This document shows positions 14,940-61,869 of a stretch of 64,000 nucleotides of DNA, piece by piece. Both the position numbers and the translations under genes were made by a program. The number at the start of each line of letters is the position of its first letter. Position 1 is the stretch's first letter. Under the pieces are notes generated by a model that worked only from the letters and a program-made list of their open reading frames with translations, was not told the origin of the DNA and made no database searches. The stretch comes from Bidens hawaiensis (Eukaryota; Streptophyta; Magnoliopsida; Asterales; Asteraceae): positions 121,009 through 185,008 of the forward strand of contig JAIQDT010005496.1 of NCBI GenBank assembly GCA_021521415.1. The letters are read 5' to 3'.

Positions 14940-15424
14940 TCCCAAGACATTCCAAATTACAAGTAAGCCTATGGGCCACAAGGTAATATATATTAATCAG
15001 TCCAATACACGAACTACGTAAATAGGTCTACTCGCATTCAATTACTACCAAGCCTATTAACATCATCGAGTCTAGACCATATTCAGGTATATAACCTTAA
15101 GGAATATAAGACCATAAACGAGTCTACAATATCCTAAGGCATAAAATATAGTTCACAAATAGTTTCATAAATGCACAAATATGAATAAGGCTATGTAATA
15201 CCATCCAAATAGTTGTAACGAGTAAAATCGTGTAAAATTGTATTACGGTGTGCATGCTAGCCCAAAACTTGAAAAGAGTAAAAAGGGCATCATGAACTCA
15301 TCTGAATCAATCGAACACCTGCAACGAGCTAGGAAATCCCTAAGTGAACAATCACAAGCAAGGGCTTGTAAATTATACACAACGCGTTACTAAACTAAAC
15401 CGCAAGGACACACTTGCCTAATGG

Positions 15425-15545
15425 GCCGCCCAAGCCCAACACTTTGGCCCAAGGCCAAACTACTTGGCCCAAGGCCCAATACTTTGGCCCAAGGCCCAAC
15501 AACTTGGCCCAAGGCCCAACACTTGGCCCCAGGCCCAACCCAAAC
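15425..15545 (+). repeat. Minisatellite of TTGGCCCAAGGCCCAA units
   Basis: About five copies of a 20-22 bp GC-rich unit built from AAGGCCCAA and ACTTGGCCC. The palindromic GGCC cores may form hairpins. An open frame of about 98 codons across it is a by-product of the repeat. Confidence 0.85.
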
Positions 15546-18386: not shown

Positions 18387-19540
18387 TTGTGTGAAATTAG
18401 AACATACTTAATAATTACTAGCAAGGGCAAGTAAGGTGTCGAATCCATAGGGAATAAGTGGAAAGTGTTAATCAAGTTCAATAATTAATAACTAATTATA
18501 CTAGGCGGATAAATGATGTCAAGCGGTTTAAAAGATTTGTTAAACGAAAACACTATTACTTTGACTTGGAAACAATTATTAAAAGGTAACCAATCTCCAG
18601 GTTTCAGGTTTTGAAGCAAGTTGGATAGATAATTAAACCTATTGGATTATAATCTTTGTTTGAAATAATTAAACCAAAAGACTAAATGTTTGACTATGTG
18701 GATTATCAGAACTTAATCCGAATGATTGACACGGCCAAACAATAATCTAATTGATTATCAATTTTAGGTGTTGATAAATTTATTCATTATTATGGTTAAA
18801 GATAGCTAGGCCAATGACACTAAGAACTCAATCCTAATTGTTGATGACCACAAATCGTTAACTGATAAACTTCAATTCATTAACTTACCAGACACACTTT
18901 AAGCACACAAACAAAATCCAAAAGTTAAGGTTTAGAGTACCAACAATCCAATAAACAACTCAGCCCTACGCCCAAAGATGGCCATGAGCGGATTAGCCTT
19001 GCAAGGCATCTTCAATAGGTTCTCTTGATTATTGAATGGAAGATCACATGGATGATTGTGATGATTGAGAGGTGTTAGGATGGTGGAAAATGGCTCCAAA
19101 TGCGTCCAAGTATGTTAGGGTATGAAGGATAGCCGTCCTAGGGTTGAAACAGGCTTAAATAGTAGGTAAAAACCAAAAATTTGCGATTTCTGTCCAGGTG
19201 ACCGTAGCCTACGGTCGCCCCACCGTAAGCTATGGTGGGGGACCGTAGCTTAAGGTCTAGTCTCACTGCTTTACGGTGCAGTCCCCACCGTACTGTTTCG
19301 CCTATAACTTCTTCGTTATACATCCCTTTTTTGGCCACGTCTTTGTGCTAAAATTCTCTTATCACTCAATATAATAAAATATTCATTTCCACTCCATCTC
19401 AAATGCTCCAATTTAGATCCTTTAAGGTCCACTCACCTGTAAATGTAAAACCACTCAAAGTAATCATGTCCGAGACATATGAACACACAAAACACACGAT
19501 AGAGCTCACTTAACATACATTATTTCACCCACACATCACT
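18387..19540 (+). other. LTR-like non-coding DNA upstream of element D gag
   Basis: The segment begins TGTGTGAAATTAG immediately after the break in A. It contains a TACTAGCAAGGGCAAGTAAG block and 'gtcgaatccatagggaa', a type of sequence often seen near plant LTR ends. At 19190-19300 there are inverted CCGTAGCCTACGG / CCACCGTAAGC motifs. No open frame is conserved. It probably belongs to an LTR or leader, but no terminus or target duplication could be fixed. Confidence 0.35.
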
Positions 19541-19544: not shown

Positions 19545-20837
19545 TATCATATGTGAGATTTGCGGAGGACCCCATTTTACTGTACGTTGTCCAAATCTAT
19601 CGGGGTTCTCCATGGAAAACGATGCTAATCCGTATTCGCAGCCGCAGCCATATGAAACACGAGAAGAATTTCTTGAACGCATGAGAGCAGTGAGAGAAGA
19701 AAGAGATCAGGAAATTCAGGCTATAATAGATTATATCAAGGTGATCCCAAAACCATGAAATGTTTCTTTTTATGATACAGAAGGAAACTTGATTGCTATT
19801 CAAATTGCTACAGGTGCGATAATACCTATAGGTTCAGACTCCGAGTTTATTACGAGCAATGAAGATCTTTAGTTAGAATCGAAGACAATGGACGAACAAG
19901 TCCCACCTTCGGTTCATCAAGAAGTTAATTCAACTCATTAGTATCCCACGCCTTGGTACTATGAATCATAACCCATTGATGATGATTTTTGGGGTGATGA
20001 GGAGATAGAGGTGGTAGAGTTGCCTAATGACACCATGGTTGAAAATGAAGAGGGCTATAAGGTGGTGGAGAATGAAATAGAGGAGTAGCACATTCCTTCA
20101 CGGGAGGGAGGCGTTTGGTGATGAACTGTTAGATTTACCAACTCCGTGTTGTGAAGACAAAGAGTTCTACCCACTTGGTGATTTAAAGCTTCTTGAGGAT
20201 CTACAATAAAATGATCCAAGTATGGGGATCGAGAAGGAGCCTTGGCAGGAGAGCTATGAGGATGTAAGTGACTCGGTTACTACAATATTACACCTCGAAT
20301 ATGATAAACCAAAATATAAACCGTACTTAATCTCCATTCTAGACGTGTTGAGGTTTGAAAAATGGGCTAGAATAGGAAGGATACAGAGGCTCACGTATCG
20401 AATTATGCTAAGGAGTTTGACATACCCGCCTCACTTCACCGAATCATTATGTAGGGTTGACCACATCTTCAGCTGGATGCATATCATATAGTTTGGTCCC
20501 AGGAAATTCAAGAGTTGGTAGGCCAAGCTAAATTCATATCTTTAGGCCCACGAAAGTTTTGCGTTTAGTTTCTTCCTAACTAATAATAAAAGAAAAGTTT
20601 CAAGGAGTATCGATAGTAAGAGGATAAAAGAAAAGCCTCCTGATTGAGGTTTTGTGAGCGAGTCTAGCTAAAGACTCTTTTGTAAACTTAGAGCTTCCCG
20701 GGAGGCAACCCGGTAGTATCTTTCTTTTTCTTTTATTTTTATTTCTTTGCTTTTCTAGGTGTTTCTTCTTTTGTTTTTATGTTGTTCGAGGGATGCGTGT
20801 GGATGGTTGATGATCTATGGTTTTAAGCAAGTGTGGG
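19545..20837 (+). pseudogene. Element D: Athila-related Gag end and post-gag frame, no pol
   Basis: At 19557-19600 the plus strand encodes CEICGGPHFTVRC, a CX2CX4HX4C zinc knuckle of Athila-type Gag. It is followed by an acidic and basic segment (REEFLERMRAVREERDQEIQ), then SFYDTEGNLIAIQIATGAI, and a longer acidic stretch broken by stops (near 19756, 19872 and later). An open stretch at 20222-20491 contains KYKPYLISILDVLRF. A GGGAGGCAACCCGG sequence at 20700 closes the frame. No protease, RT or integrase follows. The same order is found inverted at 61860-62990 (element E), so this is a non-autonomous family. The copy is interrupted at 20837 by the 15.1 kb composite insertion. Confidence 0.65.
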
Positions 20838-20914
20838 TGTAACAACCAAGTTACCACCGCACCATAATATTGTCCGCTTTGGCCGGGACGTACCACCATC
20901 GCCTCACGGATTTG

Positions 20915-21003
20915 CTTTTGGTTGCCCAGGTAGTCACCCATCCTCATACTTCTCCCACCTGAGCACGCTTAACTGTGGAATTCTCCTCTCATCCACTACC
21001 ATT
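20915..21003 (-). ncRNA. 5S rRNA-like domain in Cassandra LTR
   Basis: On the minus strand, AGTTAAGCGTGCTC (20961-20974) and AGGATGGGTGAC (20933-20944) match the box A and box C regions of plant 5S rRNA with the expected spacing; CCTGGG follows. The 5' part is diverged. It is a retrotransposon-borne 5S-derived promoter domain, not a functional rDNA unit. Pol III promoter activity is known for the family and not shown here. Confidence 0.85.
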
Positions 21004-21093
21004 AAGCGCCCAAAACGCGTTATGATGGGGAAGGTATCCACCTCCTTATAAAGAAGGCTTAGTTCTCCTTCCCAACCGATGTGGGATGTCACA

Positions 21094-21106
21094 ATCCACC
21101 CCCCTT
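21094..21106 (-). other. Cassandra polypurine tract
   Basis: On the minus strand, AAGGGGGGTGGAT directly precedes the TGTGACA start of the LTR. Confidence 0.8.
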
Positions 21107-21146
21107 AGGGGTCCAGCGTCCTCGCTGGCACCACCGGTCCGGCCCT

Positions 21147-21159
21147 GGCTTTGATACCA
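21147..21159 (-). other. Cassandra primer-binding site, initiator tRNA-Met type
   Basis: On the minus strand, TGGTATCAAAGCC differs by one base from the usual TGGTATCAGAGCC. It starts two bases after the TTACA end of chromovirus LTR C, in the place where a Cassandra LTR should be. Confidence 0.85.
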
Positions 21160-21669
21160 CTTGTAAGGCCCCGTTACCGGTAACCCTACTTTCGTGTTGG
21201 ATTTACTCAAAAACACAGTTCTAAATATCAGAGTTAATTAAAAACTTTACGCGGAATATAAAACTTTCATAAAACATTACATATCAATTCATAATCATGT
21301 CTTTAAACATTCCTCTTGTCTTTCAAAATCAAAACGTAACTTATAAAACATATCGGATCTTCAGATGCCAGGCTTTAGTCTTCTGCCATGTGTCCTCCAC
21401 TCAAGCCAGCTGTCTCATCCTACTCACCTGCGTGCATACTAAAAGTCAGCTACGCTGAGTGAGTTCTAGTTAATCATACACTACCATACAATACCTTGTT
21501 ACATACATACGTACTTAACCTCATAACTTTCTTTCATACACACATAAGTACTCATACCTTCATTCTTACTTACATACTTTCTTTCTTACTTACATACTTT
21601 CTTTCTTACTTACATACTTTCTTTACATTCATAATCATACGTTTTAAAGAGCCTTTCGCCCTATAACCT

Positions 21670-21860
21670 CACAGATATTATAAGGGTCTGGTCCCTAACA
21701 TCACAGATATTATAAGGGTCTGGTCCCTAACATCACAGATATTATAAGGGTCTGGTCCCTATCATCACAGATATTATGAGGGTCTGGTCCCTAACATCAC
21801 AGATATTATTAGGGTCTGGTCCCTAACATCACAGATATTATTAGGGTCTGGTCCCATGTT
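21670..21860 (-). repeat. 32 bp tandem repeat, six copies, in LTR C
   Basis: The unit contains CACAGATATTATAAGGGTC and TGGTCCCTAACAT, with period 32. Degenerate copies follow at 21865 and 21920. Confidence 0.95.
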
Positions 21861-22360
21861 TTCGAATATTAGTAGGGTTCGATTCCCTCTTCGTTACCAT
21901 ACAACCATACATCATACCTCGAGTATTATTAGGGCTCGGTACCCCTTTCGTAACCATACAACCATACAACCGTCATTTCCTTCTTTTATTAACTTTCTTA
22001 CGTTCATACACATAAACATACATATCATACTTGCCATATTTATAACGTTACAACCTGACAGTACGTGCAATATCCGAAGATCGTTCACGAACCATCAAGC
22101 AATCATTCATACATATCACATATATCACCTATGGCATACACTTATCACTTTGGATAAATGTATTAACAACGCATCAAGTATGCACACAGCCCCGAAAACA
22201 TAACAAGGAATGGGGCTAGAAACTCACCTGGATCCTGTTACGCTCGCCGTTGATCGTAATTCCTTTCTTTAACTGGGCTCGGCTAACTGTATAATATTTA
22301 CACATATCAATTAACTACTGCTACTCGTTTGTATTTCTATATATATATGACCCACAACGA

Positions 22361-22452
22361 ACGGGGGTCCGGGGGCAGCGCCCCTGGCAGCGGGGTTCTA
22401 GGGGCGGCAGCCCCTAGCGGGGTCCAAGGGGCAGAGCCCCTGGCTGGGGTTA
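22361..22452. repeat. GC-rich hairpin block in LTR C
   Basis: Successive self-complementary units (GGGGCAGCGCCCC, AGGGGCGGCAGCCCCT, AGGGGCAGAGCCCCT), conserved in LTRs A and H. Confidence 0.8.
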
Positions 22453-22599
22453 AGCTGCCAGGTCAGCTTGGAAAAATTTTATTTTCGATAACTGCCTTAA
22501 CACATTTTCCATTAGGTTTTTAATTTATTTTATAGACGAACTTCGCTTCAGGCGAAGTTAAACCTTAGGCGAACTTGGAAACAGCTTGGTTCTGGCTTG

Positions 22600-22875
22600 A
22601 TTCGATCGAATAGGAACACGTTCGATCGAATAGGAACACGTTCGATCGAATACAACACGTTCGATCGAATAGGAACACGTTCGATCAAACAGGAACACGT
22701 TCGATCGAATAGGAACACGTTCGATCGAATACAACACTCATTCGATCGAATACAAAACTCATTCGATCGAATGAGTTGGAGACCATTCGGTTGCTTCCCT
22801 ATTCGGTCGACTGGACTTGTTCGATCTACGCATTCGATCGAATGGACTGATTCGATCGACTGGTTCGATCGAATG
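22600..22875. repeat. TTCGATCGAA palindrome array in LTR C
   Basis: At least a dozen perfect or near-perfect 10 bp palindromes TTCGATCGAA, most in a 20 bp unit with GGAACACG. The long open frame over it (IRSNRNTFDRIGTRSI-type peptide) is a product of the repeat and its period, and I do not treat it as a gene. Confidence 0.9.
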
Positions 22876-23475
22876 AGTCTGATTCGACTCCTTCAAGCTG
22901 GGCGACGGAGAAACCCACGGGTTTTCCAGATTTTCCAGATTTTTGACCCAAAATCGAAGTTTTTGACATGGAAATGCTCGGGATTGAGAGGGCTATCGAT
23001 TCCTAGTACTTTTAAACACAAAAGCTTGCATTTTGACACCAAAACAAGGCGGTTTTTGACCCGAAAACTCAAGTTACGAAAATGGGAGTTTTTGCTCGAT
23101 TTGAGGTCGAAAATGGTTATGAAAACGGATGATTTTCGAGAGGGACTTACCAAAAACGATTAGGAACAAGATTGTGGACTCGGATTTGTGATTTGAGAAC
23201 TTTCTCTCTCTAGCTTCTCTCTCTAGAAATGAGAGTGTTTGGGTGGGTGTAAGTGAAGGAAGATGGTGAAAAATGGTGGAAGTGTCAAGAACTTTCGTTT
23301 ATATACTACGGGTTTGGTTAGGCTCGGGTTGGCTTCCTACGGGTCGAGACAGGCCGAGTTCATAAAATAACTAAGCCCAAGACCCGTTCCTTACTCGACA
23401 TTAAATAACTAAAACGTGAAATTACTAAACATAACTTTCTTTTATTTATCAATATAAAAATTTTAGGATGTTACA

Positions 23476-23500
23476 AGTCTTCCTCCCTTAAAGAGGTTTC
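23476..23500 (-). other. Polypurine tract of element C
   Basis: On the minus strand, TTAAGGGAGGAAGACT abuts the TGTAACA start of the LTR, identical in design to that of H. Confidence 0.85.
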
Positions 23501-23518
23501 GTCCCCGAAACCTAACTA

Positions 23519-26291
23519 TTACATAAACAAACTAGGGTAAAACTTGCGCATCTCATCCTCGACTTCCCAAGTAGCATCAGATCCCTTGCGGTGCTTCCAT
23601 ATCACTTTGACCAAGGGTATAATCTTGTGACGAAGCTGCTTCTCCTTGCGATCAACGATCTTTATCGGTTGCTCGATGTAGTTCAATTGTTCATCAACCT
23701 CGATGTCCATTAAGGGCACGTGAGACGTGTCATCAGCTAGACACTTCCTCAGATGAGAAACATGGAAGGTTGAATGAATTCCTTCTAACTCATTGGGTAA
23801 ATCCAGTTTGTAAGCTACTTCACCCACACGTTTTACAATCTTGAACGGTCCAATGTACCTCGGACTCAACTTTCCTCTTTTCCTAAAACGGATAATCCCC
23901 TTCCAAGGCGAGACCTTAAGCATCACATAGTCGCCAACGTTAAACTCAATTGGTCGTCGCCGCTTATCCGCATAAGACTTTTGTCTGTCTTGAGCGGCTT
24001 TCATTCTTGCTTTGATCTGATCGAACTTTGAAGACGTTTCTTGAACCACTTCTATACTTCCCATTTCCTTCTGACCAATCTCACCCCAACACACCGGGGT
24101 TCTACATCGTCTACCGTACAGCATCTCAAACGGTGGCATACCAATACTCGAATGGTAACTGTTGTTATAGGAGAACTCTGCCAGATGCAGATGATCATCC
24201 CAACTTCCACCAAAATCTAAAACGCAAGCACGTAGCATATCCTCAAGGGTTTGGATCGTCCTTTCAGACTGTCCATCGGTTTGAGGATGATACGCCGTAC
24301 TGATGTTCAACCTCGTCCCCATAGCTTCATGAAATTTCTTCCAGAACCTCGAAGTAAACCGTGTATCCCTATCAGACACGATCGATAACGGTACTCCATG
24401 CTTGGTTACAATTTCTTTAATGAACAAGCTTGCTAACGTTTCTGACGAGATGGCCTCTCGTATGGGCAGAAAGTGAGCACTCTTGGTCAAACGGTCCACA
24501 ATCACCCAGATGGTATCATGTTGCTTAGCTGTACGAGGTAGCTTAGTTATGAAATCCATGGTGATGTGTTCCCATTTCCACTCAGGTATCTCTAGCGGTT
24601 GCATCTTCCCACAAGGCTTTTGGTGTTCGGCTTTGACTTGTAAGCAAGTTAAGCACTTACCAACATAATCCACTACATCGCTCTTCAATCCTGGCCACCA
24701 GTAATCTCTTTTCAAGTCTTGGTACATCTTTGTAGCTCCTGGATGGATTGAGTACCTTGACTTATGAGCTTCATCTAAGATTCGACTTCTAAGATCACCA
24801 TGGCGTGGGATCCACATACGGTCGAACCTAGTCTTAACTCCATGAGTGTTTTCCATCAACTCATCTTGCTGGCCATAAATCCTTTCCTTCTTTACTAACC
24901 CTTCATCTATTAACACTTCTGACTGCACCTTGATGATTTCTTCAAAAAGACTCGGGTTCATGATCAACTTGTATGACTTCACTGTTGCAAGGACTTCCTC
25001 ATTCTTCCGACTTAACGCATCAGCGACCACGTTAGCTTTACCGGGGTAATACTTAATCTCACAGTCGTAATCCTTTATCAATTCTAACCATCTTCTCTGC
25101 CTCATGTTCAGTTCTTTCTGCTCGAAGAAGTACTTTAAACTCTTATGATCGGTATAGATAGTACACTTAGTGCCGTACAGATAATGCCTCCATATCTTAA
25201 GAGCATGCACTACAGCTGCTAACTCCAAATCATGCGTCGGGTAAGTACTCTCATGGACCTTCAACTGTCTAGACGCGTAGGCTATCACCTTCCCTCGTTG
25301 CATCAACACGCAACCTAACCCTTGATGCGAGGCATCAGCACAAACAACAAAATCCTCATCACCATCGGGTAAAGTAAGGATTGGAGCTTGCGTGAGTCTT
25401 CTCTTTAATTCTTCAAAGGCTTCTTCTTGAAATTTTCCCCAACTGAATACTATCGACTTTCGGGTCATACCGGTCAGCGGTGCGGCTATCTTGGAGAAAC
25501 CTTCGATGAATCTCCTATAGTAGCCAGCTAACCCTAGGAAGCTTCGTATATCAGTCGGATTCTGCGGAGTCTTCCAATTCGTTATCGCTTCAATCTTAGC
25601 TGGGTCCACGGTAATCCCCTCCGGATTAACCACATGACCTAAAAATTGCACTTCTCTTAACCAGAACGCACACTTCGAAAACTTGGCGTACAACCTTTCT
25701 TTCTTCAGAACTTCCAATACCTCTCTCAGATGCTCGGCATGGTCAGACTCACTCTTTGAATAAATCAATATATCATCGATGAAGACGATAACCGACTTAT
25801 CCAACATCGGTCGACACACCCTATTCATCATGTCCATAAATGCTGCAGGAGCATTTGTTAGACCGAATGACATTACAAGGAACTCGTAGTGTCCATACCG
25901 CGTTCGGAACGCTGTTTTAGGGATGTCTACCTCTTTCACCTTCAGCTGATGGTAGCCTGATCTGAGATCTATTCGTGAGAACCAACTCGAACCTTGCAGT
26001 TGGTCAAACAGATCGTCAATCCTAGGCAAGGGGTATCTATTCTTTACCGTAAGCTTATTCAACTCACGATAGTCTATGCACATTCTCATACTTCCATCCT
26101 TTTTCTTCACAAACAAAACCGGTGCGCCCCATGGAGAAACACTCGGTCTGATAAAACCCTTGTCGAGGAGTTCTTGCAGTTGGGACATTAATTCCTTCAT
26201 CTCGGACGGTGCTAGACGGTAAGGCGCTTTCGCGACGGGCTGGGCTCCTGGTATTAAATCTATCTGAAATTCTATTTCTCGCTCCGGTGGC
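23519..26291 (-). pseudogene. Chromovirus C pol, 5'-truncated but otherwise open
   Basis: An uninterrupted minus-strand frame covers the pre-RT linker ([15 protein letters not shown]), RT, RNase H, integrase and the chromodomain-like C-terminus ending in FYPSLFM. About 920 residues are homologous to residues 637-1559 of the H polyprotein, with only a handful of substitutions. Gag, the zinc knuckles and protease are missing, because similarity ends at GGTGGC (26286-26291) where the head-to-head junction begins. The first few codons of the open frame (upstream of 26291) come from junction and LTR sequence. It has lost the Gag-protease part, so it cannot act alone, though its RT and integrase motifs look whole. 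Confidence 0.92.
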
Positions 26292-26300
26292 CAACTGCAA
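26291..26300. other. Head-to-head junction between elements C and H
   Basis: C pol matches H up to GGTGGC at 26291. A short stretch CAACTGC then leads into AGTTATG at 26300, which is base 40 of the H LTR. The filler-like bases and loss of 39 bp of LTR suggest end joining rather than clean insertion. Confidence 0.85.
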
Positions 26301-26430
26301 GTTATGTTTAGTAAATTCACGTTTTAGTTATTTAATGTCGAGTAAGGAACGGGTCTTGGGCTTAGTTATTTTATGAACTCGGCCTGTCTCGACCCGTAGG
26401 AAGCCAACCCGAGCCTAACCAAACCCGTAG

Positions 26431-26438
26431 TATATAAA
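26431..26438 (+). promoter_or_regulatory. TATA box of H 5' LTR
   Basis: TATATAAA in a GC-richer context, about 170 bp into a full LTR, so most of the LTR (about 2.1 kb) lies downstream in the transcript. The sequence from here to 26585 contains no ATG. Confidence 0.75.
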
Positions 26439-26859
26439 CGAAAGTTCTTGACACTTCCACCATTTTTCACCATCTTCCTTCACTTACACCCACCCAAACA
26501 CTCTCATTTCTAGAGAGAGAAGCTAGAGAGAGAAAGTTCTCAAATCACAAATCCGAGTCCACAATCTTGTTCCTAATCGTTTTTGGTAAGTCCCTCTCGA
26601 AAATCATCCGTTTTCATAACCATTTTCGACCTCAAATCGAGCAAAAACTCCCATTTTCGTAACTTGAGTTTTCGGGTCAAAAACCGCCTTGTTTTGGTGT
26701 CAAAATGCAAGCTTTTGTGTTTAAAAGTACTAGGAATCGATAGCCCTTTCAATCCCGAGCATTTCCATGTCAAAAACTTCGATTTTGGGTCAAAAATCTG
26801 GAAAATCTGGAAAACCCGTGGGTTTCTCCGTCGCCCAGCTTGAAGGAGTCGAATCAGAC

Positions 26860-27140
26860 TCATTCGATCGAACCAGTCGATCGAATCAGTCCATTCGATC
26901 GAATGCGTAGATCGAACAAGTCCAGTCGACCGAATAGGGAAGCAACCGAATGGTCTCCAACTCATTCGATCGAATGAGTTTTGTATTCGATCGAATGAGT
27001 GTTGTATTCGATCGAACGTGTTCCTATTCGATCGAACGTGTTCCTGTTTGATCGAACGTGTTCCTATTCGATCGAACGTGTTGTATTCGATCGAACGTGT
27101 TCCTATTCGATCGAACGTGTTCCTATTCGATCGAATCAAG
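26860..27140. repeat. TTCGATCGAA palindrome array in H 5' LTR
   Basis: Same array as in LTR C: repeated TTCGATCGAA within 20 bp units with CGTGTTCC. It lies in the predicted intron and leader RNA. Confidence 0.9.
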
Positions 27141-27879
27141 CCAGAACCAAGCTGTTTCCAAGTTCGCCTAAGGTTTAACTTCGCCTGAAGCGAAGTTCGT
27201 CTATAAAATAAACTAAAAACCTAATGGAAAATGTGTTAAGGCAGTTATCGAAAATAAAATTTTTCCAAGCTGACCTGGCAGCTTAACCCCAGCCAGGGGC
27301 TCTGCCCCTTGGACCCCGCTAGGGGCTGCCGCCCCTAGAACCCCGCTGCCAGGGGCGCTGCCCCCGGACCCCCGTTCGTTGTGGGTCATATATAGATAGA
27401 AATACAAACGAGTAGCAGTAGTTAATTGATATGTGTAAATATTATACAGTTAGCCGAGCCCAGTTAAAGAAAGGAATTACGATCAACGGCGAGCGTAACA
27501 GGATCCAGGTGAGTTTCTAGCCCCATTCCTTGTTATGTTTTCGGGGCTGTGTGCATACTTGATGTGTTGTTAATACATTTATCCAAAGTGATAAGTGTAT
27601 GCCATAGGTGATATATGTGATATGTATGAATGATTGCTTGATGGTTCGTGAACGATCTTCGGATATTGCACGTACTGTCAGGTTGTAACGTTATAAATAT
27701 GGCAAGTATGATATGTATGTTTATGTGTATGAACGTAAGAAAGTTAATAAAAGAAGGAAATGACGGTTGTATGGTTGTATGGTTACGAAAGGGGTACCGA
27801 GCCCTAATAATACTCGAGGTATGATGTATGGTTGTATGGTAACGAAGAGGGAATCGAACCCTACTAATATTCGAAAACA

Positions 27880-28075
27880 TGGGACCAGACCCTAATAATA
27901 TCTGTGATGTTAGGGACCAGACCCTAATAATATCTGTGATGTTAGGGACCAGACCCTCATAATATCTGTGATGATAGGGACCAGACCCTTATAATATCTG
28001 TGATGTTAGGGACCAGACCCTTATAATATCTGTGATGTTAGGGACCAGACCCTTATAATATCTGTGAGGTTATAG
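27880..28075 (+). repeat. 32 bp tandem repeat in H 5' LTR
   Basis: Six copies containing GGGACCAGACCCTTATAATA followed by TCTGTGATGTTA, period 32. Confidence 0.93.
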
Positions 28076-28557
28076 GGCGAAAGGCTCTTTAAAACGTATG
28101 ATTATGAATGTAAAGAAAGTATGTAAGTAAGAAAGAAAGTATGTAAGTAAGAATGAAGGTATGAGTACTTATGTGTGTATGAAAGAAAGTTATGAGGTTA
28201 AGTACGTATGTATGTAACAAGGTATTGTATGGTAGTGTATGATTAACTAGAACTCACTCAGCGTAGCTGACTTTTAGTATGCACGCAGGTGAGTAGGATG
28301 AGACAGCTGGCTTGAGTGGAGGACACATGGCAGAAGACTAAAGCCTGGCATCTGAAGATCCGATATGTTTTATAAGTTACGTTTTGATTTTGAAAGACAA
28401 GAGGAATGTTTAAAGACATGATTATGAATTGATATGTAATGTTTTATGAAAGTTTTATATTCCGCGTAAAGTTTTTAATTAACTCTGATATTTAGAACTG
28501 TGTTTATGAGTAAATCCAACACGAAAGTAGGGTTACCGGTAACGGGGCCTTACAAGT

Positions 28558-28569
28558 TGGTATCAGAGC
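28558..28569 (+). other. Primer-binding site of H, initiator tRNA-Met type
   Basis: TGGTATCAGAGC begins four bases after the LTR end (TTACA then AGT). A perfect match to the usual plant Met-initiator primer site. Confidence 0.95.
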
Positions 28570-28957
28570 AAAGTTCGAGAGATTTAAGCATCCTACATGC
28601 TTAGACTCGAACAGAGAATGGGATTTAAGTAAGAAAGGAAAGAAGATGCCAGTTCAAGAATGCCATGTGTCGCTCAAGCAAGATCAGTAAAGGTAAAGTG
28701 CATGATTAAATGATGTATGTTAATAAGAAAGAAAGGATATGTGAACGATAGGGATAGGAATAATTGACTGTTTAAATTGACAAACTGCTTAAGTAGAACC
28801 AGCACAAATAGACTCATAAAGGGAAGTGTATATGACACGGAAAGTAACGTGATCAGCTAATCGCAACTGGCCACTGTTATTACCTGTTAGCCTTACTATC
28901 CTTGTACTAGATAGTTCCTTGAGTGATGATGTTTGTGTTTTCTCATATAGGATACTG

Positions 28958-31900
28958 ATGGCTGGAGCTGGAGAATTTGTTGAAGCTGGGGGTCGCACTG
29001 GACGTCGTGGCAGGCCTCGTCTTGTCCGGCAACCCTCGGTAGAAGAAGCTTCCCACACCGAAGATGAAGGAAGCGCAGCTGGAGGAGACCAGAACAACAA
29101 CGAAGAAGTTCAACTTAGCCCCGCAGTTCAAGCAGCCATCGTTCAGGCTGTAGTTGCTGCTGTGAAGAACCTGAATCCCGAAGGATCTGCTGGAAGCCGT
29201 GAACGAACTGTTGAAGGGGCGGGTGGTGATGGTAGAAAGGATGGGGAAGGTGAAAGAGGGGCCTCGAGTGGGGATAAGTCTGTGAAAGTCGATGATAGGA
29301 GAGGAGGACAAGGTGGGTGCAGCTATAAGTCCTTCAAAGGTTGTGACCCGCCTAAGCTGACTGGTTTAGGAGACGCAATCGCTACTCTCCAGTGGATAAC
29401 CGCTATGGACAAGGTTATCCGCATTAGCGAATGCCGTCCCGACCAAGCTGTGGGTTATGCTACTCAGTCATTCGTAGATGAGGCTATGTATTGGTGGGAG
29501 AGTGTGGAGCAGAGGAAGACCCGTGAAGAGATCAAAGAGATGAAGTGGGAAGATTTGAAAGAGTTGGTAATGAAGAAGTTCTGTGCAGATGCCGAGGTTG
29601 AAAGAACGGAGATGAAGTTCCAGAATTTAAAAGCCGGTATGATGACGCATCGTGAGTATACCACGGAGTTCAACCGACTATCTAGGTTGGTGCCTGACAT
29701 GGTTGACACTGAAGTCAAGAGAATCAAGTGTTATGTGAGGGGGTTGCCACAAAAGGTCCGCATGTTAGTCAGGGCGGTTCAACCTGCTACTTTTGATTCG
29801 GCTGTTGGACTCGCGGAAATGGTCTATGCTGACGTGGCCGCGGATGATAGGGTGGAAAGGGACGAAGAGAAAGAGGAGAAAGGGGTCACTCCTGCTAAAC
29901 GACCCGGTACTCAGTTATGGAACTCCAGGGATAAGAAACAGAAAGTGTGGGAGAAGAGATCGTGTAAGACCTGCGGAAAGAGGCATGGTGGTGAATGCAA
30001 GTGGGGTAAAAATTCTAATGTTTGTCTCAAATGTGGAAAGGCTCATGGTGGAGAATGCAGAATGGGGTCGAATGCCTGTTATAAGTGCGGGAAGGTAGGG
30101 CATTATGCCAATGAGTGCAGTGCGAAGCCAACATGTTACAAATGTGGCAAGACAGGCCATATGTCAAGGGAGTGCACTGAAGGTGTAGCTGGAGGTAGTG
30201 GAAAGAAGGATGCCGATCAAGCTAGGCCCAGAACTAGAGCCTACATGCTGACCCAGGAACAAGCCAGGCAGATTCCGGATGTCGTCACAGGTACGTTTCT
30301 AGTGAACGATGTTTCCGCTTCTGTGTTATTTGATTCTGGTGCGAATAGAAGTTTTGTAGCTACGACGTTTAGTAAACTAGCTAAAATGAAAGGCTGCCGA
30401 GTGTCTGAAACTTTTGTAGTAGAAACCGCAAGTGACACTTCGGTGAAAATAACAAAAATGGTGAAGAATTGTAAGATAGAGTTAGAGGGACATGAGTTCC
30501 CTGTTACTTTGTATGTTATGGCCTTAGGAGGGTTCGATGTAGTCTTGGGTATGGATTGGTTGTCGGAGTTTGAGGCTCAGATAGTATGTAAAAGTAAGAT
30601 GATAAGGTTAAAGTCATTGGATGGTAGTGCGGTGACGGTTTATGGTGATAAGGAGAGTTATGGACTTAATGTCATTTCGATGATAAAAGCCGAGGGTTTG
30701 TTAAGGCGAGGGTGCGGTGCCTACCTGGCGTATGTTGTCAACGCTACGGCCGAGACGAAAGAAATGAAGAATGTTCCTATTGTGCGCGACTACCCAGAAG
30801 TATTCCCTGAGGATCTTCCGGGGTTGCCACCTGAGCGAGAGATAGAATTTCAGATAGATCTAGTACCAGGAGCCCAGCCCGTCGCGAAGGCGCCTTACCG
30901 TCTAGCACCGTCCGAGATGAAGGAATTGATGTCCCAACTGCAAGAACTCCTCGACAAGGGTTTTATCAGACCGAGTGTTTCTCCGTGGGGCGCACCGGTT
31001 TTGTTTGTGAAGAAAAAGGATGGAAGTATGAGAATGTGCATAGACTATCGTGAGTTGAATAAGCTTACGGTAAAGAATAGATACCCCTTGCCTAGGATTG
31101 ACGATCTGTTTGACCAACTGCAAGGTTCGAGTTGGTTCTCACGAATAGATCTCAGATCAGGCTACCATCAGCTGAAGGTGAAAGAGGTAGACATCCCTAA
31201 AACAGCGTTCCGAACGCGGTATGGACACTACGAGTTCCTTGTAATGTCATTCGGTCTAACAAATGCTCCTGCAGCATTTATGGACATGATGAATAGGGTG
31301 TGTCGACCGATGTTGGATAAGTCGGTTATCGTCTTCATCGATGATATATTGATTTATTCAAAGAGTGAGTCTGACCATGCCGAGCATCTGAGAGAGGTAT
31401 TGGAAGTTCTGAAGAAAGAAAGGTTGTACGCCAAGTTTTCGAAGTGCGCGTTCTGGTTAAGAGAAGTGCAATTTTTAGGTCATGTGGTTAATCCGGAGGG
31501 GATTACCGTGGACCCAGCTAAGATTGAAGCGATAACGAATTGGAAGACTCCGCAGAATCCGACTGATATACGAAGCTTCCTAGGGTTAGCTGGCTACTAT
31601 AGGAGATTCATCGAAGGTTTCTCCAAGATAGCCGCACCGCTGACCGGTATGACCCGTAAGACGATAGTATTCAATTGGGGAAAGTTTCAGGAGGAAGCCT
31701 TTGAAGAATTGAAGAAGAGACTCACGCAAGCTCCAATCCTTACTTTACCCGATGGTGATGAGGATTTTGTTGTTTGTGCTGATGCCTCGCATCAAGGGTT
31801 AGGTTGCGTGTTGATGCAACGAGGGAAGGTGATAGCCTACGCGTCTAGACAGTTGAAGGTCCATGAGAGTACTTACCCGACGCATGATTTGGAGTTAGCA

Positions 31901-33598
31901 GCTGTAGTGCATGCTCTTAAGATATGGAGGCATTATCTGTACGGCACTAAGTGTACTATCTATACCGATCATAAGAGTTTAAAGTACTTCTTCGAGCAGA
32001 AAGAACTGAACATGAGGCAGAGAAGATGGTTAGAATTGATAAAGGATTACGACTGTGAGATTAAGTATTACCCCGGTAAAGCTAACGTGGTCGCTGATGC
32101 GTTAAGTCGGAAGAATGAGGAAGTCCTTGCAACAGTGAAGTCATACAAGTTGATCATGAACCCGAGTCTTTTTGAAGAAATCATCAAGGTGCAGTCAGAA
32201 GTGTTAATAGATGAAGGGTTAGTAAAGAAGGAAAGGATTTATGGCCAGCAAGATGAGTTGATGGAAAACACTCATGGAGTTAAGACTAGGTTCGACCGTA
32301 TGTGGATCCCACGCCATGGTGATCTTAGAAGTCGAATCTTAGATGAAGCTCATAAGTCAAGGTACTCAATCCATCCAGGAGCTACAAAGATGTACCAAGA
32401 CTTGAAAAGAGATTACTGGTGGCCAGGATTGAAGAGCGATGTAGTGGATTATGTTGGTAAGTGCTTAACTTGCTTACAAGTCAAAGCCGAACACCAAAAG
32501 CCTTGTGGGAAGATGCAACCGCTAGAGATACCTGAGTGGAAATGGGAACACATCACCATGGATTTCATAACTAAGCTACCTCGTACAGCTAAGCAACATG
32601 ATACCATCTGGGTGATTGTGGACCGTTTGACCAAGAGTGCTCACTTTCTGCCCATACGAGAGGCCATCTCGTCAGAAACGTTAGCAAGCTTGTTCATTAA
32701 AGAAATTGTAACCAAGCATGGAGTACCGTTATCGATCGTGTCTGATAGGGATACACGGTTTACTTCGAGGTTCTGGAAGAAATTTCATGAAGCTATGGGG
32801 ACGAGGTTGAACATCAGTACGGCGTATCATCCTCAAACCGATGGACAGTCTGAAAGGACGATCCAAACCCTTGAGGATATGCTACGTGCTTGCGTTTTAG
32901 ATTTTGGTGGAAGTTGGGATGATCATCTGCATCTGGCAGAGTTCTCCTATAACAACAGTTACCATTCGAGTATTGGTATGCCACCGTTTGAGATGCTGTA
33001 CGGTAGACGATGTAGAACCCCGGTGTGCTGGGGTGAGATTGGTCAGAAGGAAATGGGAAGTATAGAAGTGGTTCAAGAAACGTCTTCAAAGTTCGATCAG
33101 ATCAAAGCAAGAATGAAAGCCGCTCAAGACAGACAAAAGTCTTATGCGGATAAGCGGCGACGACCAATTGAGTTTAACGTTGGCGACTATGTGATGCTTA
33201 AGGTCTCGCCTTGGAAGGGGATTATCCGTTTTAGGAAAAGAGGAAAGTTGAGTCCGAGGTACATTGGACCGTTCAAGATTGTAAAACGTGTGGGTGAAGT
33301 AGCTTACAAACTGGATTTACCCGATGAGTTAGAAGGAATTCATTCAACCTTCCATGTTTCTCATCTGAGGAAGTGTCTAGCTGATGACACGTCTCACGTG
33401 CCCTTAATGGACATCGAGGTTGATGAACAATTGAACTACATCGAGCAACCGATAAAGATCGTTGATCGCAAGGAGAAGCAGCTTCGTCACAAGATTATAC
33501 CCTTGGTCAAAGTGATATGGAAGCACCGCAAGGGATCTGATGCTACTTGGGAAGTCGAGGATGAGATGCGCAAGTTTTACCCTAGTTTGTTTATGTAA
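28958..33598 (+). CDS. gag-pol: Chromovirus H Gag-Pol polyprotein, single frame
   Basis: The open frame runs from 28919, but the ATG at 28958 ([12 protein letters not shown]) is the likelier start because it follows the predicted splice acceptor. Residues below count from 28919 (1559 in all). Gag domain about 136-305 ([34 protein letters not shown]). Two degenerate Cys clusters at 349 and 369 (CX2CX4HX2C), then two CCHC knuckles at 387 and 406. Protease DSG at 472. [11 protein letters not shown] at 706 and FIDD at 808. RNase H Asp 955 and TDHKS at 1017. Integrase His 1145 and CLTC 1182, with catalytic Asp 1215, Asp 1276 and Glu 1312. Chromodomain-like tail about 1510-1559. All catalytic residues are present and there is no stop or frameshift. 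The polyprotein would make virus-like particles, reverse transcribe RNA and integrate cDNA. Functional state is inferred. Confidence 0.95.
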
Positions 33599-33626
33599 TA
33601 GTTAGGTTTCGGGGACGAAACCTCTT

Positions 33627-33641
33627 TAAGGGAGGAAGACT
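33627..33641 (+). other. Polypurine tract of H
   Basis: AAGGGAGGAAGACT directly before the TGTAACATCC start of the 3' LTR. Confidence 0.9.
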
Positions 33642-35935
33642 TGTAACATCCTAAAATTTTTATATTGATAAATAAAAGAAAGTTATGTTTAGTAAATTCA
33701 CGTTTTAGTTATTTAATGTCGAGTAAGGAACGGGTCTTGGGCTTAGTTATTTTATGAACTCGGCCTGTCTCGACCCGTAGGAAGCCAACCCGAGCCTAAC
33801 CAAACCCGTAGTATATAAACGAAAGTTCTTGACACTTCCACCATTTTTCACCATCTTCCTTCACTTACACCCACCCAAACACTCTCATTTCTAGAGAGAG
33901 AAGCTAGAGAGAGAAAGTTCTCAAATCACAAATCCGAGTCCACAATCTTGTTCCTAATCGTTTTTGGTAAGTCCCTCTCGAAAATCATCCGTTTTCATAA
34001 CCATTTTCGACCTCAAATCGAGCAAAAACTCCCATTTTCGTAACTTGAGTTTTCGGGTCAAAAACCGCCTTGTTTTGGTGTCAAAATGCAAGCTTTTGTG
34101 TTTAAAAGTACTAGGAATCGATAGCCCTTTCAATCCCGAGCATTTCCATGTCAAAAACTTCGATTTTGGGTCAAAAATCTGGAAAATCTGGAAAACCCGT
34201 GGGTTTCTCCGTCGCCCAGCTTGAAGGAGTCGAATCAGACTCATTCGATCGAACCAGTCGATCGAATCAGTCCATTCGATCGAATGCGTAGATCGAACAA
34301 GTCCAGTCGACCGAATAGGGAAGCAACCGAATGGTCTCCAACTCATTCGATCGAATGAGTTTTGTATTCGATCGAATGAGTGTTGTATTCGATCGAACGT
34401 GTTCCTATTCGATCGAACGTGTTCCTGTTTGATCGAACGTGTTCCTATTCGATCGAACGTGTTGTATTCGATCGAACGTGTTCCTATTCGATCGAACGTG
34501 TTCCTATTCGATCGAATCAAGCCAGAACCAAGCTGTTTCCAAGTTCGCCTAAGGTTTAACTTCGCCTGAAGCGAAGTTCGTCTATAAAATAAACTAAAAA
34601 CCTAATGGAAAATGTGTTAAGGCAGTTATCGAAAATAAAATTTTTCCAAGCTGACCTGGCAGCTTAACCCCAGCCAGGGGCTCTGCCCCTTGGACCCCGC
34701 TAGGGGCTGCCGCCCCTAGAACCCCGCTGCCAGGGGCGCTGCCCCCGGACCCCCGTTCGTTGTGGGTCATATATAGATAGAAATACAAACGAGTAGCAGT
34801 AGTTAATTGATATGTGTAAATATTATACAGTTAGCCGAGCCCAGTTAAAGAAAGGAATTACGATCAACGGCGAGCGTAACAGGATCCAGGTGAGTTTCTA
34901 GCCCCATTCCTTGTTATGTTTTCGGGGCTGTGTGCATACTTGATGTGTTGTTAATACATTTATCCAAAGTGATAAGTGTATGCCATAGGTGATATATGTG
35001 ATATGTATGAATGATTGCTTGATGGTTCGTGAACGATCTTCGGATATTGCACGTACTGTCAGGTTGTAACGTTATAAATATGGCAAGTATGATATGTATG
35101 TTTATGTGTATGAACGTAAGAAAGTTAATAAAAGAAGGAAATGACGGTTGTATGGTTGTATGGTTACGAAAGGGGTACCGAGCCCTAATAATACTCGAGG
35201 TATGATGTATGGTTGTATGGTAACGAAGAGGGAATCGAACCCTACTAATATTCGAAAACATGGGACCAGACCCTAATAATATCTGTGATGTTAGGGACCA
35301 GACCCTAATAATATCTGTGATGTTAGGGACCAGACCCTCATAATATCTGTGATGATAGGGACCAGACCCTTATAATATCTGTGATGTTAGGGACCAGACC
35401 CTTATAATATCTGTGATGTTAGGGACCAGACCCTTATAATATCTGTGAGGTTATAGGGCGAAAGGCTCTTTAAAACGTATGATTATGAATGTAAAGAAAG
35501 TATGTAAGTAAGAAAGAAAGTATGTAAGTAAGAATGAAGGTATGAGTACTTATGTGTGTATGAAAGAAAGTTATGAGGTTAAGTACGTATGTATGTAACA
35601 AGGTATTGTATGGTAGTGTATGATTAACTAGAACTCACTCAGCGTAGCTGACTTTTAGTATGCACGCAGGTGAGTAGGATGAGACAGCTGGCTTGAGTGG
35701 AGGACACATGGCAGAAGACTAAAGCCTGGCATCTGAAGATCCGATATGTTTTATAAGTTACGTTTTGATTTTGAAAGACAAGAGGAATGTTTAAAGACAT
35801 GATTATGAATTGATATGTAATGTTTTATGAAAGTTTTATATTCCGCGTAAAGTTTTTAATTAACTCTGATATTTAGAACTGTGTTTATGAGTAAATCCAA
35901 CACGAAAGTAGGGTTACCGGTAACGGGGCCTTACA
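33642..35935 (+). mobile_element. 3' LTR of H, 2294 bp, complete
   Basis: TGTAACATCC to GGGGCCTTACA. TATA at 33812-33819; donor-like GGTAAGT at 33966-33972; palindrome array about 34241-34521; GC-rich block about 34669-34756; 32 bp repeats about 35261-35456. It is followed by the GTGGG target duplication, so this end is a genuine integration end. Confidence 0.95.
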
Positions 35936-37480
35936 GTGGGGATGCCAGTTGCTTCAGGATTGCTGCTTCATTCGTGGCAGAGTACCTTATTTGGAAATAG
36001 TTTGCTGATCGCGTTTGAATGGTAGAGCGTGGAACACGACTCACGAGGCATATCGTAAATTTACTAGGGGTGTCTGTTCCAATTAATTAATTTATTTTTA
36101 ATTTTTGCTTTATTTTATTTGTAATTTCATTTTTCTCACATTGAGGACAATTTGAAATTTAAGTGTGGGGATGAGAAACTAACGTTTTTTTTTTAAAAAA
36201 AATGGAAAATGATAGAAAAATTAGAGATTGGTTTTTCAAAACTACTATTATATATAAGATATAAAAATATGGAAAACACACTCAATTTGCAATGTGTTGG
36301 GAGACCCAACCGACCTTGAAAGGTTTTCTGAAATTGTTATTAAATATACCTAATAAATCACGAAGATTCGTGGGTGCCCATTTTAGGAGAAGCGGCAAAG
36401 CAAAAATTCGATAGGGTATTTAAATATTACCGTAATCCGACAACTTTCATGTGGTGGGAATAAGATGAATTTTAAAAACAGTGCACCACTATGTTTTATG
36501 AAAGTAAATTAAGAGTGGTTGTGTCCCGCAATTTTCACTTTTTATACGAGTGTTAGAGAATAGTTATATTAGAAGATGCCTAAGAGCACAAAAGAAAAAA
36601 AGAATAAAAAAGAAAAAGAAAAAAAAGTATGTTTTGAAAGTGTATTCAAAGAAGTTGGTCTGAAAGACAAAGAAAAAGAAAGTTATATATTGCAAAAATG
36701 TCAAAGAAGCATTCTCTAAAATAGAAAAAGAGGCCAAATGTGAACATACTAGACGAGCCGAGAGCTTTCGCGTTTCCTTGGGGATAGTGACTCAGAGTGT
36801 ATGCTATTGGGGCTTGATGTTTATCTTATGGAATACATAGGATGAAGTCCAATCATACTTAAGGCATGCTCGTATGACCTTCATATGACCATTCATAAAT
36901 CAAAGTCCACCTAAATTGACATTGGTTCCTAGCATTAAAGAGTTCTTGTCTTACGGTGATAGGTAACCAGTTTGTTTGACCCTAGTTTGAAATGCTTGAG
37001 TTGGGGTAGGTCTAGTCACGACTTCCAGAGTATGGCACCCATAATTTGATTGACGCACTTAAAGATAATGATTAATGCAATAGGCGGCCTGATAAGTTGG
37101 TGGCTGGATTTAAGTGGATAACAATATCCGCAATCGCGGTTTTCGCGTTTATAAGTTTAATAATTAAAGAAACCTAAATGTTTAGAAAGTCAATTTTCTG
37201 ATTATGATTTCATTGCAAAGTACTTTTGCAGGGACAAAAAAGGTTTAAGTGTGGTGATATTTGAAAAGGGAAAATTTATATATAAATCCTATAATTATTT
37301 CTACACTTTTGAGTAGCATTTGAGCTATTTTTTATTTAATTGTACTTTAATTTGGGTCATATTTAGTTTTAAAAGTTTCATGATTAAACGAGTTAATCGG
37401 AGTGCTTTCATTAAGGTTGAACCGTGTGAAATCAAAACATACTTTTATTTTTAATTTTATTGAAACCCGATTCTTAGAAA
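35936..37480 (+). mobile_element. Element D, 3' non-coding part
   Basis: Continues element D after the composite insertion. It matches, inverted, about 60300-61740 of element E: AAGTGTGGGGATG boxes (35933-35948 across the site, 36160-36175), a GATAGAAAAATTAGAGATTGG stretch (36209-), and a polypurine-like GTTTAAGTGTGGTGATATTT at 37240-37262 that would adjoin a 3' LTR. No coding sequence. Where D ends on the right is not clear. Confidence 0.6.
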
Positions 37481-37587: not shown

Positions 37588-37811
37588 TGCATTATAAGAA
37601 TCAAAATATTTGGAAGTCAATTACACGCACGAGCACAGTAGGCAAAATACGGGTAAAGTTAAATTACAAAGGACAACAAAAATGAGAAGGGTGAGAAGGA
37701 ATCTAATCTATTGATCTTAGATTTGAATGATGGAAATTAATTTAAGAAAATAAATTGATGAAAATGGCATAAATGTAATAACCCACTTTTGTTGACTTTC
37801 TCTTTTCACAT

Positions 37812-38840
37812 TGTTGAGTCAGATATTTGCTAAGGAAGATTGGAATCTTCTCAACCTCCTCTGGAAATCAGCTAAGTATGGACTTCGAGCAAGCTTGGAC
37901 GATCGGGCATGGTTTACTACCTCGAGCAAAGTCTTCAGAACCATTTGTGGTTAATTCTCCTAAGTGAAGGCTTCGACCAAGCTACACTTCAACGAGCAAG
38001 AGTGTTCTTCTATCGAGTATGGATTGCCAATCGAGCAAACAACTTGATCATTCAAGTCTTAACCAAGTGTTACGGGCACAGGATGTCCGAGCACATGGTG
38101 ACGAGGGTGGATGCAATAAGAAGATGTCATATGCTCCAAGCATGGACTACGAGCATGGTTCAATCTCCCGAGCAAGATTTATATCCGAGCATGCTAAAGA
38201 TTGCTAAATAAGTCTTAAGACAAGATTGAAGGCATCAAGAAGAATGAGCTTGCTCGATGGACTAGTTCGAGCAAAGCAAGGATGAGTCAAGAAGAATGAA
38301 GTCTGCTAGAGGAGAATATTTCTTTGAAAATGTTCTAAGTAAAGTATGTACAAAGACACTCATCTAGCATACCTAGCATAGTGAGTCTGCTCGAGCAAGA
38401 TGCTTATCATGCTCGAAGACTCTTACACTTGTATTTGTTTTTGTCTTTCATTATGTAATAATTAGGGATTCTAGAAGGAATGTTAGGGTCTATAAATAGG
38501 GTCCTAGGTTTCCATTTAGGGAGTCGGGATGCACGGAATACGAGAAACATTCCTACGAATATTCATTTTGTCTCCTCGTACATCCGCCGCCGTTTTCACG
38601 AAACCCTTGACATTCCTTTCACTGTTTCATTGAATGATGTATTAAATACAGTGAATCTTTATCTTTGAATCTCTCTTTACTGATTATCATTTATTGTTTC
38701 GTTTGTTATTATATCACGCCTTCACTCCCATCCGTTGGATATCCTGATTCTGCAGGGATATTCAATAGGCCTTTGGGTTATTGAGTTTGTGTGTTCTTGT
38801 TAACCTTATTAAGGTTTGCACCAGATTCTCGGTCCTGACA
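37812..38840 (+). mobile_element. 5' LTR of Copia-type element, 1029 bp
   Basis: TGTTGAGTCAGATATTTGC to GGTCCTGACA. It contains many GAGCA/CTCGA motifs, a possible TATA (tataaatag) at 38492-38500, and a CA-rich leader after it. The LTRs differ by a few substitutions and small indels, so the insertion is older than that of H. Confidence 0.9.
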
Positions 38841-38842
38841 AG

Positions 38843-38854
38843 TGGTATCAGAGC
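38843..38854 (+). other. Primer-binding site of Copia-type element
   Basis: TGGTATCAGAGC two bases after the LTR end; initiator tRNA-Met type. Confidence 0.92.
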
Positions 38855-38948
38855 TTTGGAAGCTCGCTGAAGACCATGGGACTGAAGGTTTGTGATAAAG
38901 CTTGAAGCTTTACTGTGTTTGACTGCTTGAAAGGTCAGATCTGCTGAA

Positions 38949-39747: not shown

Positions 39748-39954
39748 AATCAGAGAAACCAAATGGTCAACCAAAATCCCTATCAACAATAGAATAGACC
39801 TCAACAACAGTTCAAGTCTCAAAGACATAACCAACTACAGATTCAAAACAATCAGAATAGAGGAAACCCAAATGATGTGAATCAAGTGAGGGATCAAGGA
39901 AATGTTGCTGTCACAAGGGTACCACAAGATGGGATTTTGACTGGAGCAACCATG

Positions 39955-60300: not shown

Positions 60301-61869
60301 AAGCCGAGAGTGTGTGAACATTGCGAGCACATGACGTTTTGCATAAGAAAAAGCTTATAAAAGCAAATCATAGTTCTAAATATCACTACATATGATAACA
60401 CATTTTTTTATTTTATGGATTACCGAGACGTTCTAAATCCAGCCACTAGCCTAACAAGCCCCCAATCATATTTATTAATTAAATTTAAGTTATATTCATA
60501 AACCTGTGGGTCTCACACCTAAACACTTACTGATCCACCTACCCCCATCTCAAGCATAACCAACACAAATTAAATAGGGTTGAATTAGTCTGGTTCAACC
60601 TATCACTGTAAGTTAAGAACCCTTTAATGGTAAGAAGAATTTTCACTTAGGTGGAGTTTAAATGGATGAAGGGTCCATCATTCTTTCACCCGAGCTGCAA
60701 CCCAGTATATGACGGCCGCATACCTCCACGCTTAGTATTTCCTAAAAATATTTATTGAATAAAAACCTCGAACCCCAATAGCGTACCCTCAGAGTCACCA
60801 ACCCCAAGTTAACGCGTAAGCTCTTTAGCCCCATCTAGTATGTGCACTTTTGCCTTTTTGTCTATATTTTAGATGCTCTTTCTTTGGCATTTTTGCAATA
60901 CACAACTTTTTTTGCAGCCTTCCGGACCAACTTCTCGGAATACCTTTCAAAACCTACTTCTTTTTTTTGTTTTATTTTTTTGTGTGCTCTTAAGCATCTT
61001 TTACAATGTATAAGTATTTTCTAAGCTCATTTAAAATTTGGACATGGCGGGGCACCACCATTGTGTATTTATTTTCATAAAACAGAGTGGCGTGCTAGTT
61101 CAAGTGCATTTATTCTCACCGCCTCAAGGTAGTCAGATTATGGTAATACTCCATATGCCTTATCGAACTTTCAGCTTCACTATCCCACCTCAAGATGTGA
61201 ACCCACAAGGTTTATGATTATTAGGTAAATTAATATAATCAAGGGAAACCTTTCAAAGCTAGTTGGGTTTACTAACAGATCTCAAGCTTAGTGCATTATC
61301 TTTTATTAAATCTCATATATAATAATAGTTTTCAAAAACCAATCTCAAATTTTTCTATCATTTTTCATTATTCGCAAAAGAAATTTTCGAAACATTTTTC
61401 AAAAATTTTCAACTTTTTTTAAATAATAATATATATATTTTACGTCAGTTTCCCATCCCCACACATAAATTTCACAATGTCCTCAATGTGAAACAAGGAA
61501 AAGACACATATAAAGCAGAAAGAAAAATAAAGTTGAACAGACTCCCCTGGTATATGTATCCATGAAAGTGTGTGGTAAATCGTGTTCCTTGCCCTCCAAT
61601 TCGAACGAAAGCCTCAAACTCAAATGCTCTTTACCATGCTGTTACTCACGAATGAAAGCAGGAATTAATAATTAATAATTTTAAAAACGTCTCGGTAATC
61701 ATGCGGTAGTCGGCATCCCTACACTTACTTCAAACCCTAGCTCATCAACCGTTCATACACAACCATGAAACAACATGAAAACAAAAGAAGAAAACACCCG
61801 GCGTAACAAAGAAATAACAGCAAAATAAAATAAACTAGATAGAAAACATGTTACCCGGGTTGCCTTCCG

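Follow-up and report, generated by a model that had tools for sequence, protein, structure and literature searches.

Insertions that hold more than one retrotransposon between a single pair of target-site duplications (TSDs) are known from grasses, where such complex insertions have been attributed to reverse transcription, with two found in ∼7 Mb of Triticeae sequence, one in rice and one in maize (Sabot and Schulman 2007, PMC1950507). Here, we analyzed a 64-kb stretch of the Bidens hawaiensis genome (Asteraceae; assembly GCA_021521415.1, contig JAIQDT010005496.1, positions 121,009–185,008; hereafter the window, 37.9% G+C and zero N), in which a 15,098-bp block combines a part derived from Cassandra, a terminal-repeat retrotransposon in miniature (TRIM), with two copies of a Ty3/Gypsy retrotransposon of the chromovirus type. 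Like the grass complexes formed by template switching (Angela, Squiq and Opie; PMC1950507), the block is one large insertion of the complementary DNAs (cDNAs) of two elements with a 5-bp TSD. The grass complexes, which were ascribed to reverse transcription rather than to recombination at a later time (PMC1950507), are same-family, same-orientation dimers with three long terminal repeats (LTRs), matching outer LTRs and two complete cores. In contrast, the composite described here contains two families, with the chromovirus copies head to head and one of them partial and inverted, unrelated outer LTRs, U5 sequence at both ends and one truncated scar.

A second group of related systems is formed by mini-Tnt1 of tobacco (Hou et al. 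2010, PMC2923131), a non-autonomous element helped in trans, and the ONSEN recombinants (PMC5668417). According to the available portions of both reports, different RNAs of one particle were copied into one cDNA, which is comparable to what we propose below, although recombination there took place within a family and yielded normal two-LTR elements. TSD-flanked complexes are known in grasses; the head-to-head fusion of two families with two U5 ends is a new form of them. In a partial search of the open-licence PMC literature we found no report of a Cassandra–chromovirus composite. Maiwald et al. 2021 reportedly treats Cassandra recombination.

The Cassandra TRIM lineage is described as widespread in vascular plants in the available text of PMC7215508. 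Larger related elements are known for 11 of 289 TRIM subfamilies, and four of those encode full proteins, as stated in the accessible part of Gao et al. (PMC4717578). A partner or helper that mobilizes Cassandra is not named in the available parts of PMC10853983, PMC7215508 and PMC4717578.

Target site, empty site and termini of the composite

The composite spans 20838–35935, with limits obtained from a self-comparison of the window and refined by reading the junctions. From left to right, a Cassandra-like LTR with its internal region lies on the minus strand with U5 outward and is followed by the 3′ portion of a first chromovirus copy (copy 1), also on the minus strand, and by a second copy (copy 2), nearly complete, on the plus strand and again with U5 outward; the two copies stand head to head (Table 1). 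In the self-comparison, copies 1 and 2 appear as an inverted match of 21157–26295 with 30823–35939 at 99.1% identity, and the two LTRs of copy 2 appear as a direct match of 26299–28554 with 33680–35935. A preliminary description of this DNA, made from its letters alone, had proposed a 15.1-kb unit of Cassandra and two chromovirus copies. The composite itself is borne out, with the correction that copy 1 (21162 to ∼26292) extends only from the reverse transcriptase (RT) to the 3′ LTR and that copy 2 has lost the first 38 bp of its 5′ LTR.

The whole block is flanked by GTGGG, as had been claimed, and the two flanks match exactly 5 bases back from the ends; two random 5-mers from the window would be equal with a probability of 0.0014. 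The surrounding sequence is an element that we call D (19681–20837 and 35941–36822), and a diverged, inverted relative of the same repeat family, E, lies at 60763–62894. One stretch of D, read in a single frame, has 16 stops. The preliminary description had held that E retains the empty site and had proposed an alignment of D and E as a check. When D was joined across the block (300 + 300 bases, keeping one GTGGG), it aligned to E unbroken across the join (query positions 4–581 of 600, 68.2% identity over 651 columns including 90 gaps, E-value 4e-67), with AAGTGTAGGGATGCC in E corresponding to AAGTGTGGGGATGCC in the joined D, which confirms the empty site. Importantly, the empty site is stronger proof of insertion than a 5-bp TSD match, and a TSD arising by chance was rejected on the strength of it.

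An ordinary LTR element has one U3 end and one U5 end. Here, the left terminus is the U5 end of a Cassandra LTR and the right terminus is the U5 end of a chromovirus LTR, as first described, and both outer tips are exactly TTACA. At the U3 tips of the Cassandra-like and chromovirus LTRs, 9 of the first 10 bases are identical. The outer ends look like those of one normal integrase insertion. The earlier claim was of a single integration, with two outward-facing U5 ends, of cDNAs joined before or during that integration, and it agrees with the TSD, with the empty site and with LTR tips that are intact to the base.

Table 1. Features of the composite and of the empty site, in window coordinates
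Feature	Position	Strand	Remarks
Left target-site duplication GTGGG	20833..20837	.	Abuts outer LTR tip
Cassandra-like 3′ LTR, 256 bp	20838..21093	-	Outward U5 end (TTACA); 5S-type boxes A and C at 20932-20974
Cassandra-like internal region, 68 bp	21094..21161	-	Purine-rich tract adjoins LTR; primer-binding site TGGTATCAAAGC (21148-21159) adjoins copy 1
Copy 1 3′ LTR, 2314 bp	21162..23475	-	20-bp insertion and 6 substitutions relative to copy 2 3′ LTR; U5 end abuts spacer of Cassandra primer-binding site
Copy 1 partial internal region	23476..26292	-	Begins shortly before RT and reaches chromo-like end; lacks 5′ half
Inner head-to-head join	26293..26298	.	3-8 nt filler; limits uncertain
Copy 2 5′ LTR without first 38 bp	26299..28554	+	Identical to 3′ LTR over 2256 bp
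Copy 2 open gag-pol frame, 1559 aa	28919..33598	+	gag, zinc knuckle, protease, RT, RNase H, integrase, SH3, weak chromodomain
Copy 2 3′ LTR, 2294 bp	33642..35935	+	U5 end (TTACA) outward
Right target-site duplication GTGGG	35936..35940	.	Abuts outer LTR tip
Uninterrupted (empty) site in relative E	61712..61726	-	From D/E alignment

The Cassandra-derived part and its join to copy 1

Read on the minus strand, 20838–21161 contains a primer-binding site (PBS) within the short interior, then a purine-rich tract at the interior end and then the LTR. Box A and box C of published Cassandra (motifs taken from PMC7215508) are present in this LTR 18 nt apart, which is the published spacing, and the pair is the only one in the window. 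Rfam gave no match at gathering score anywhere in the window; in a search of 20700–21300 alone, the 5S_rRNA model covered 20909–21015 full-length but scored 14.8 bits where the gathering score is 38 (E-value 3.8), and the 5S identity therefore depends on the promoter boxes. ARAGORN found nothing in the window. The PBS, which adjoins the chromovirus LTR, has 11 of the 12 bases of the published Met-type TGGTATCAGAGC.

The promoter boxes at their published spacing, a PBS resembling the Met type and the very short interior are shared with Cassandra TRIMs as characterized in the available sections of PMC7215508 and PMC10853983, and the sizes are near the medians that the latter gives for Cassandra in Asteraceae (270 bp for the LTR and 82 bp for the interior). 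Unlike those TRIMs, this one has an interior and one LTR only, with a chromovirus LTR occupying the place of the 5′ LTR. Since only one Cassandra LTR is present and two matching LTRs were not found, we refer to a Cassandra-derived part and not to a complete Cassandra.

At the join, the copy 1 LTR is retained to its last base and adjoins the Cassandra PBS; a shared TTACAAG prevents finer placement. It appears as if the Cassandra 5′ LTR had been exchanged for a chromovirus LTR at the LTR/PBS boundary. This boundary is where plus-strand transfer occurs during reverse transcription, a step in which the PBS of the U3-R-U5-PBS plus strand anneals to its complement on the minus strand. Annealing of the plus strand to the wrong cDNA would yield the join seen between the Cassandra-derived part and copy 1. 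The exact 22-nt join was found in 0 stretches of the viral_contigs collection, a weak test, as that collection is not one of plant DNA.

The chromovirus copies and their head-to-head join

Plant chromoviruses are Ty3/Gypsy elements with a chromodomain after the integrase. The copy 2 frame, searched for domains in five pieces, gave gag, zinc knuckle, protease, RT, RNase H, the integrase zinc domain and SH3_Tf2-1 in chromovirus order, with the integrase core rve below threshold (21.9 bits against a cut-off of 32.6) in a piece that ended inside the domain. Copy 1, searched in three pieces, gave RT, RNase H, the integrase zinc domain and SH3, and no match to rve in these pieces. In both copies, the chromodomain PF00385 lies at the expected place with 18.0 bits, below the Pfam cut-off of 25.1 (E-values 0.0027 and 0.0028). 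Copy 2 resembles plant chromoviruses in its order of gag, protease, RT, RNase H, integrase and chromo-like end, and the locus departs from them in the chromodomain match under the cut-off, the partial copy 1 and the shortened 5′ LTR of copy 2.

The RT piece of copy 2 (344 aa) has at least 8000 scored relatives, with 83% identity for the best full-query match among the matches listed. Of the best 120 of these at least 8000 relatives, 110 carry a source name, which is always Tanacetum, Helianthus, Mikania, Smallanthus, Arctium or Centaurea. All six genera belong to the Asteraceae. An older, broken member of the same chromovirus family, relative B, lies on the minus strand at 8615–18389, is ∼77–82% identical to copies 1 and 2 and is interrupted between ∼13.2 and 17.3 kb. 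The chromovirus LTR, which runs from TGTAACATCC (33642) to TTACA (35935), contains internal tandem repeats (at 26964–28072, 34345–35453 and 21664–22772) made of TTCGATCGAA-rich units and ∼32-bp units around GGGACCAGACCC.

As the first 38 bp of the LTR are missing from the 5′ LTR of copy 2, the inner junction represents a broken end rather than a U3 terminus. Both sides of this junction are truncated and ragged, and the limits of the filler between them are approximate, as they depend on the parent sequence of copy 1. The 11 nt across the join (26291–26301) have inverted repeats at 25993–26003 and 26173–26183 in copy 1 and at 17662–17672 in a relative; copy 2 carries them in the direct orientation, at 30934–30944 and 31114–31124. 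When fillers were randomized between the same flanks, 5 of 400 produced an equally long match somewhere in the composite and 1 of 400 did so within 300 bp. The filler suggests templated end joining, and short templated inverted duplications are described for yeast breaks in the available part of PMC11724301. Two other origins of the join were rejected: autointegration of the copy 2 U3 tip into copy 1, since 38 bp of the LTR, whose true start is seen at 33642 in the 3′ LTR, are missing at the junction, and a fold-back artefact, since the arms are offset from each other and not identical (25 differing sites).

Age and parentage of the copies

Identity of the copy 2 LTRs over 2256 bp bounds the insertion at ∼51,000 years with a substitution rate of 1.3e-8, or at 95,000 years with 7e-9 (0 changes, 95%), a bound that holds unless gene conversion acted. 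Copies 1 and 2 are distinguished by a 20-bp indel and by 25 substitutions, of which the 2818 bp of internal sequence contain 19 and the LTR contains 6. By a hand calculation, only ∼7 differences between them are expected to have arisen since an insertion at the 51,000-year bound, and the observed excess therefore indicates two different parent RNAs for the two copies.

Among the 19 internal differences, 16 fall in the tracts 30832–30985 and 31657–31717, and 13 are at third codon positions. Of 20 internal sites (including one at the junction), 12 have the copy 1 state in relative B, 7 have the copy 2 state and 1 has neither. The clustering in two short tracts gives the differences the look of a patchwork, which may reflect recombination among family members.

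Origin of the composite

Starting from the 5-bp TSD, the empty site, the U5 tips at both termini and three unlike joins, all of which can be read in the DNA, we infer a series of steps that led to the composite. We consider it probable that a mis-paired plus-strand transfer and end joining were followed by one integration, via two U5 ends, into element D. What was inserted, once, would have been a composite cDNA or two cDNAs gathered by one integrase complex. Chromovirus and Cassandra RNAs would have been reverse-transcribed from their Met-type PBSs in the same particle or nucleus, and a chromovirus plus strand ending in U5-PBS would then have paired with the PBS end of a Cassandra minus-strand cDNA instead of its own, giving a product made of the chromovirus 3′ part, LTR, PBS, Cassandra interior and Cassandra LTR. 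End joining would have linked the broken end of this product to a second chromovirus cDNA in head-to-head orientation, at the truncated U3 side of the latter and with a short filler in between. This could have taken place before integration, or afterwards when free tails were repaired once the two U5 ends had been inserted; pre-joining and joint integration of separate cDNAs leave identical sequence. Integrase would have used the two intact ends, both U5 with TTACA tips, producing the 5-bp duplication, and both 5′ ends of the composite would be the starts of tRNA-primed minus strands. Precedents are complex insertions through template switching (PMC1950507) and PBS-guided second-strand transfer, for which the available part of PMC12786077 summarizes intermolecular transfer, PBS microhomology and alternative end joining.

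Several observations weigh against this series of steps. The spacer before the chromovirus PBS is AGT while that at the join is AG, and simple PBS pairing cannot account for all bases unless the Cassandra spacer is natively AG, the window containing no complete Cassandra; in addition, the PBS at the join has one mismatch to the 12 bases of the published PBS. Part of the filler at the inner join may derive from the parent of copy 1 as native sequence. A purine run of at least 10 is absent at the copy 1 break (the nearest are at 30200 and 31009), and on this ground we rejected a primed plus-strand start as the explanation of that end. Finally, the composite is a single event.

Other histories account for some of the same features. 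The LTR/PBS join carries no date of its own and copy 1, which differs from copy 2 at 25 sites, had another parent, as would be the case if a chromovirus–Cassandra chimera had pre-existed as a genomic element from an earlier cycle and its transcript had given copy 1 with the Cassandra end, leaving only the head-to-head join as new. However, such a chimera would have unlike LTRs at its ends (chromovirus 5′ and Cassandra 3′), which ordinary strand transfers would not retain, and we regard it as unlikely. An assembly artefact, to which 5.1-kb arms of 99.1% identity could lend themselves since they are difficult to assemble, is quite improbable in our judgement: the sides of the inner junction have no long overlap, the arms are offset by several kb and carry 25 differing sites, unlike an overlap mis-join or a fold-back read, and a mis-join is not expected to place matching 5-bp repeats around an uninterrupted site. 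Separate successive insertions at one place followed by deletions and an inversion would draw on nesting, which is common in plant genomes (PMC1950507). This history is hardly credible, as the TSD shared by the tips of two families would need a deletion exactly at an LTR tip and target repeat, a second deletion would have to end exactly at the LTR/PBS boundary, the identical copy 2 LTRs leave little time and the empty site in E is clean.

Implications for the mobilization of Cassandra

The preliminary description had also seen in the composite a physical link between Cassandra and a possible helper. The link, formed in one event, stands, while the helper role is suggestive only, given one event, the same PBS type and similar LTR tips. 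The Cassandra-derived part and the chromovirus share the PBS core TGGTATCA, the tips compared above and one common integration, which suggests that the chromovirus may act as a helper that packages, copies and integrates Cassandra RNA. We put forward tentatively, as a possibility that may well not hold, that Cassandra is reverse-transcribed and integrated by this very chromovirus family, in which case the composite would be a fossil of one particle that contained Cassandra RNA along with two distinct chromovirus RNAs. Plus-strand transfer would have been the stage at which it was captured, and a single integrase complex would have inserted it via the U5 ends of two families.

The composite is one physical link, at the level of sequence, between a TRIM lineage and a protein-coding family, so that the question of what moves Cassandra can be addressed to a definite family, and it offers a rare hint about which large element might mobilize it. 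It also indicates that an integrase accepted two U5 ends from different families, and that mis-paired plus-strand transfer with end joining can fuse unrelated retrotransposons into a product that is still insertable.

A neighboring LTR element

A separate LTR element lies at 37807–42943, with LTRs at ∼37812–38840 and ∼41906–42938 that are 95.8% identical and the TSD CACAT on both sides. Its PBS, TGGTATCAGAGC, follows an AG spacer at 38841, and a weak zinc-knuckle match is present at 39361–39744.

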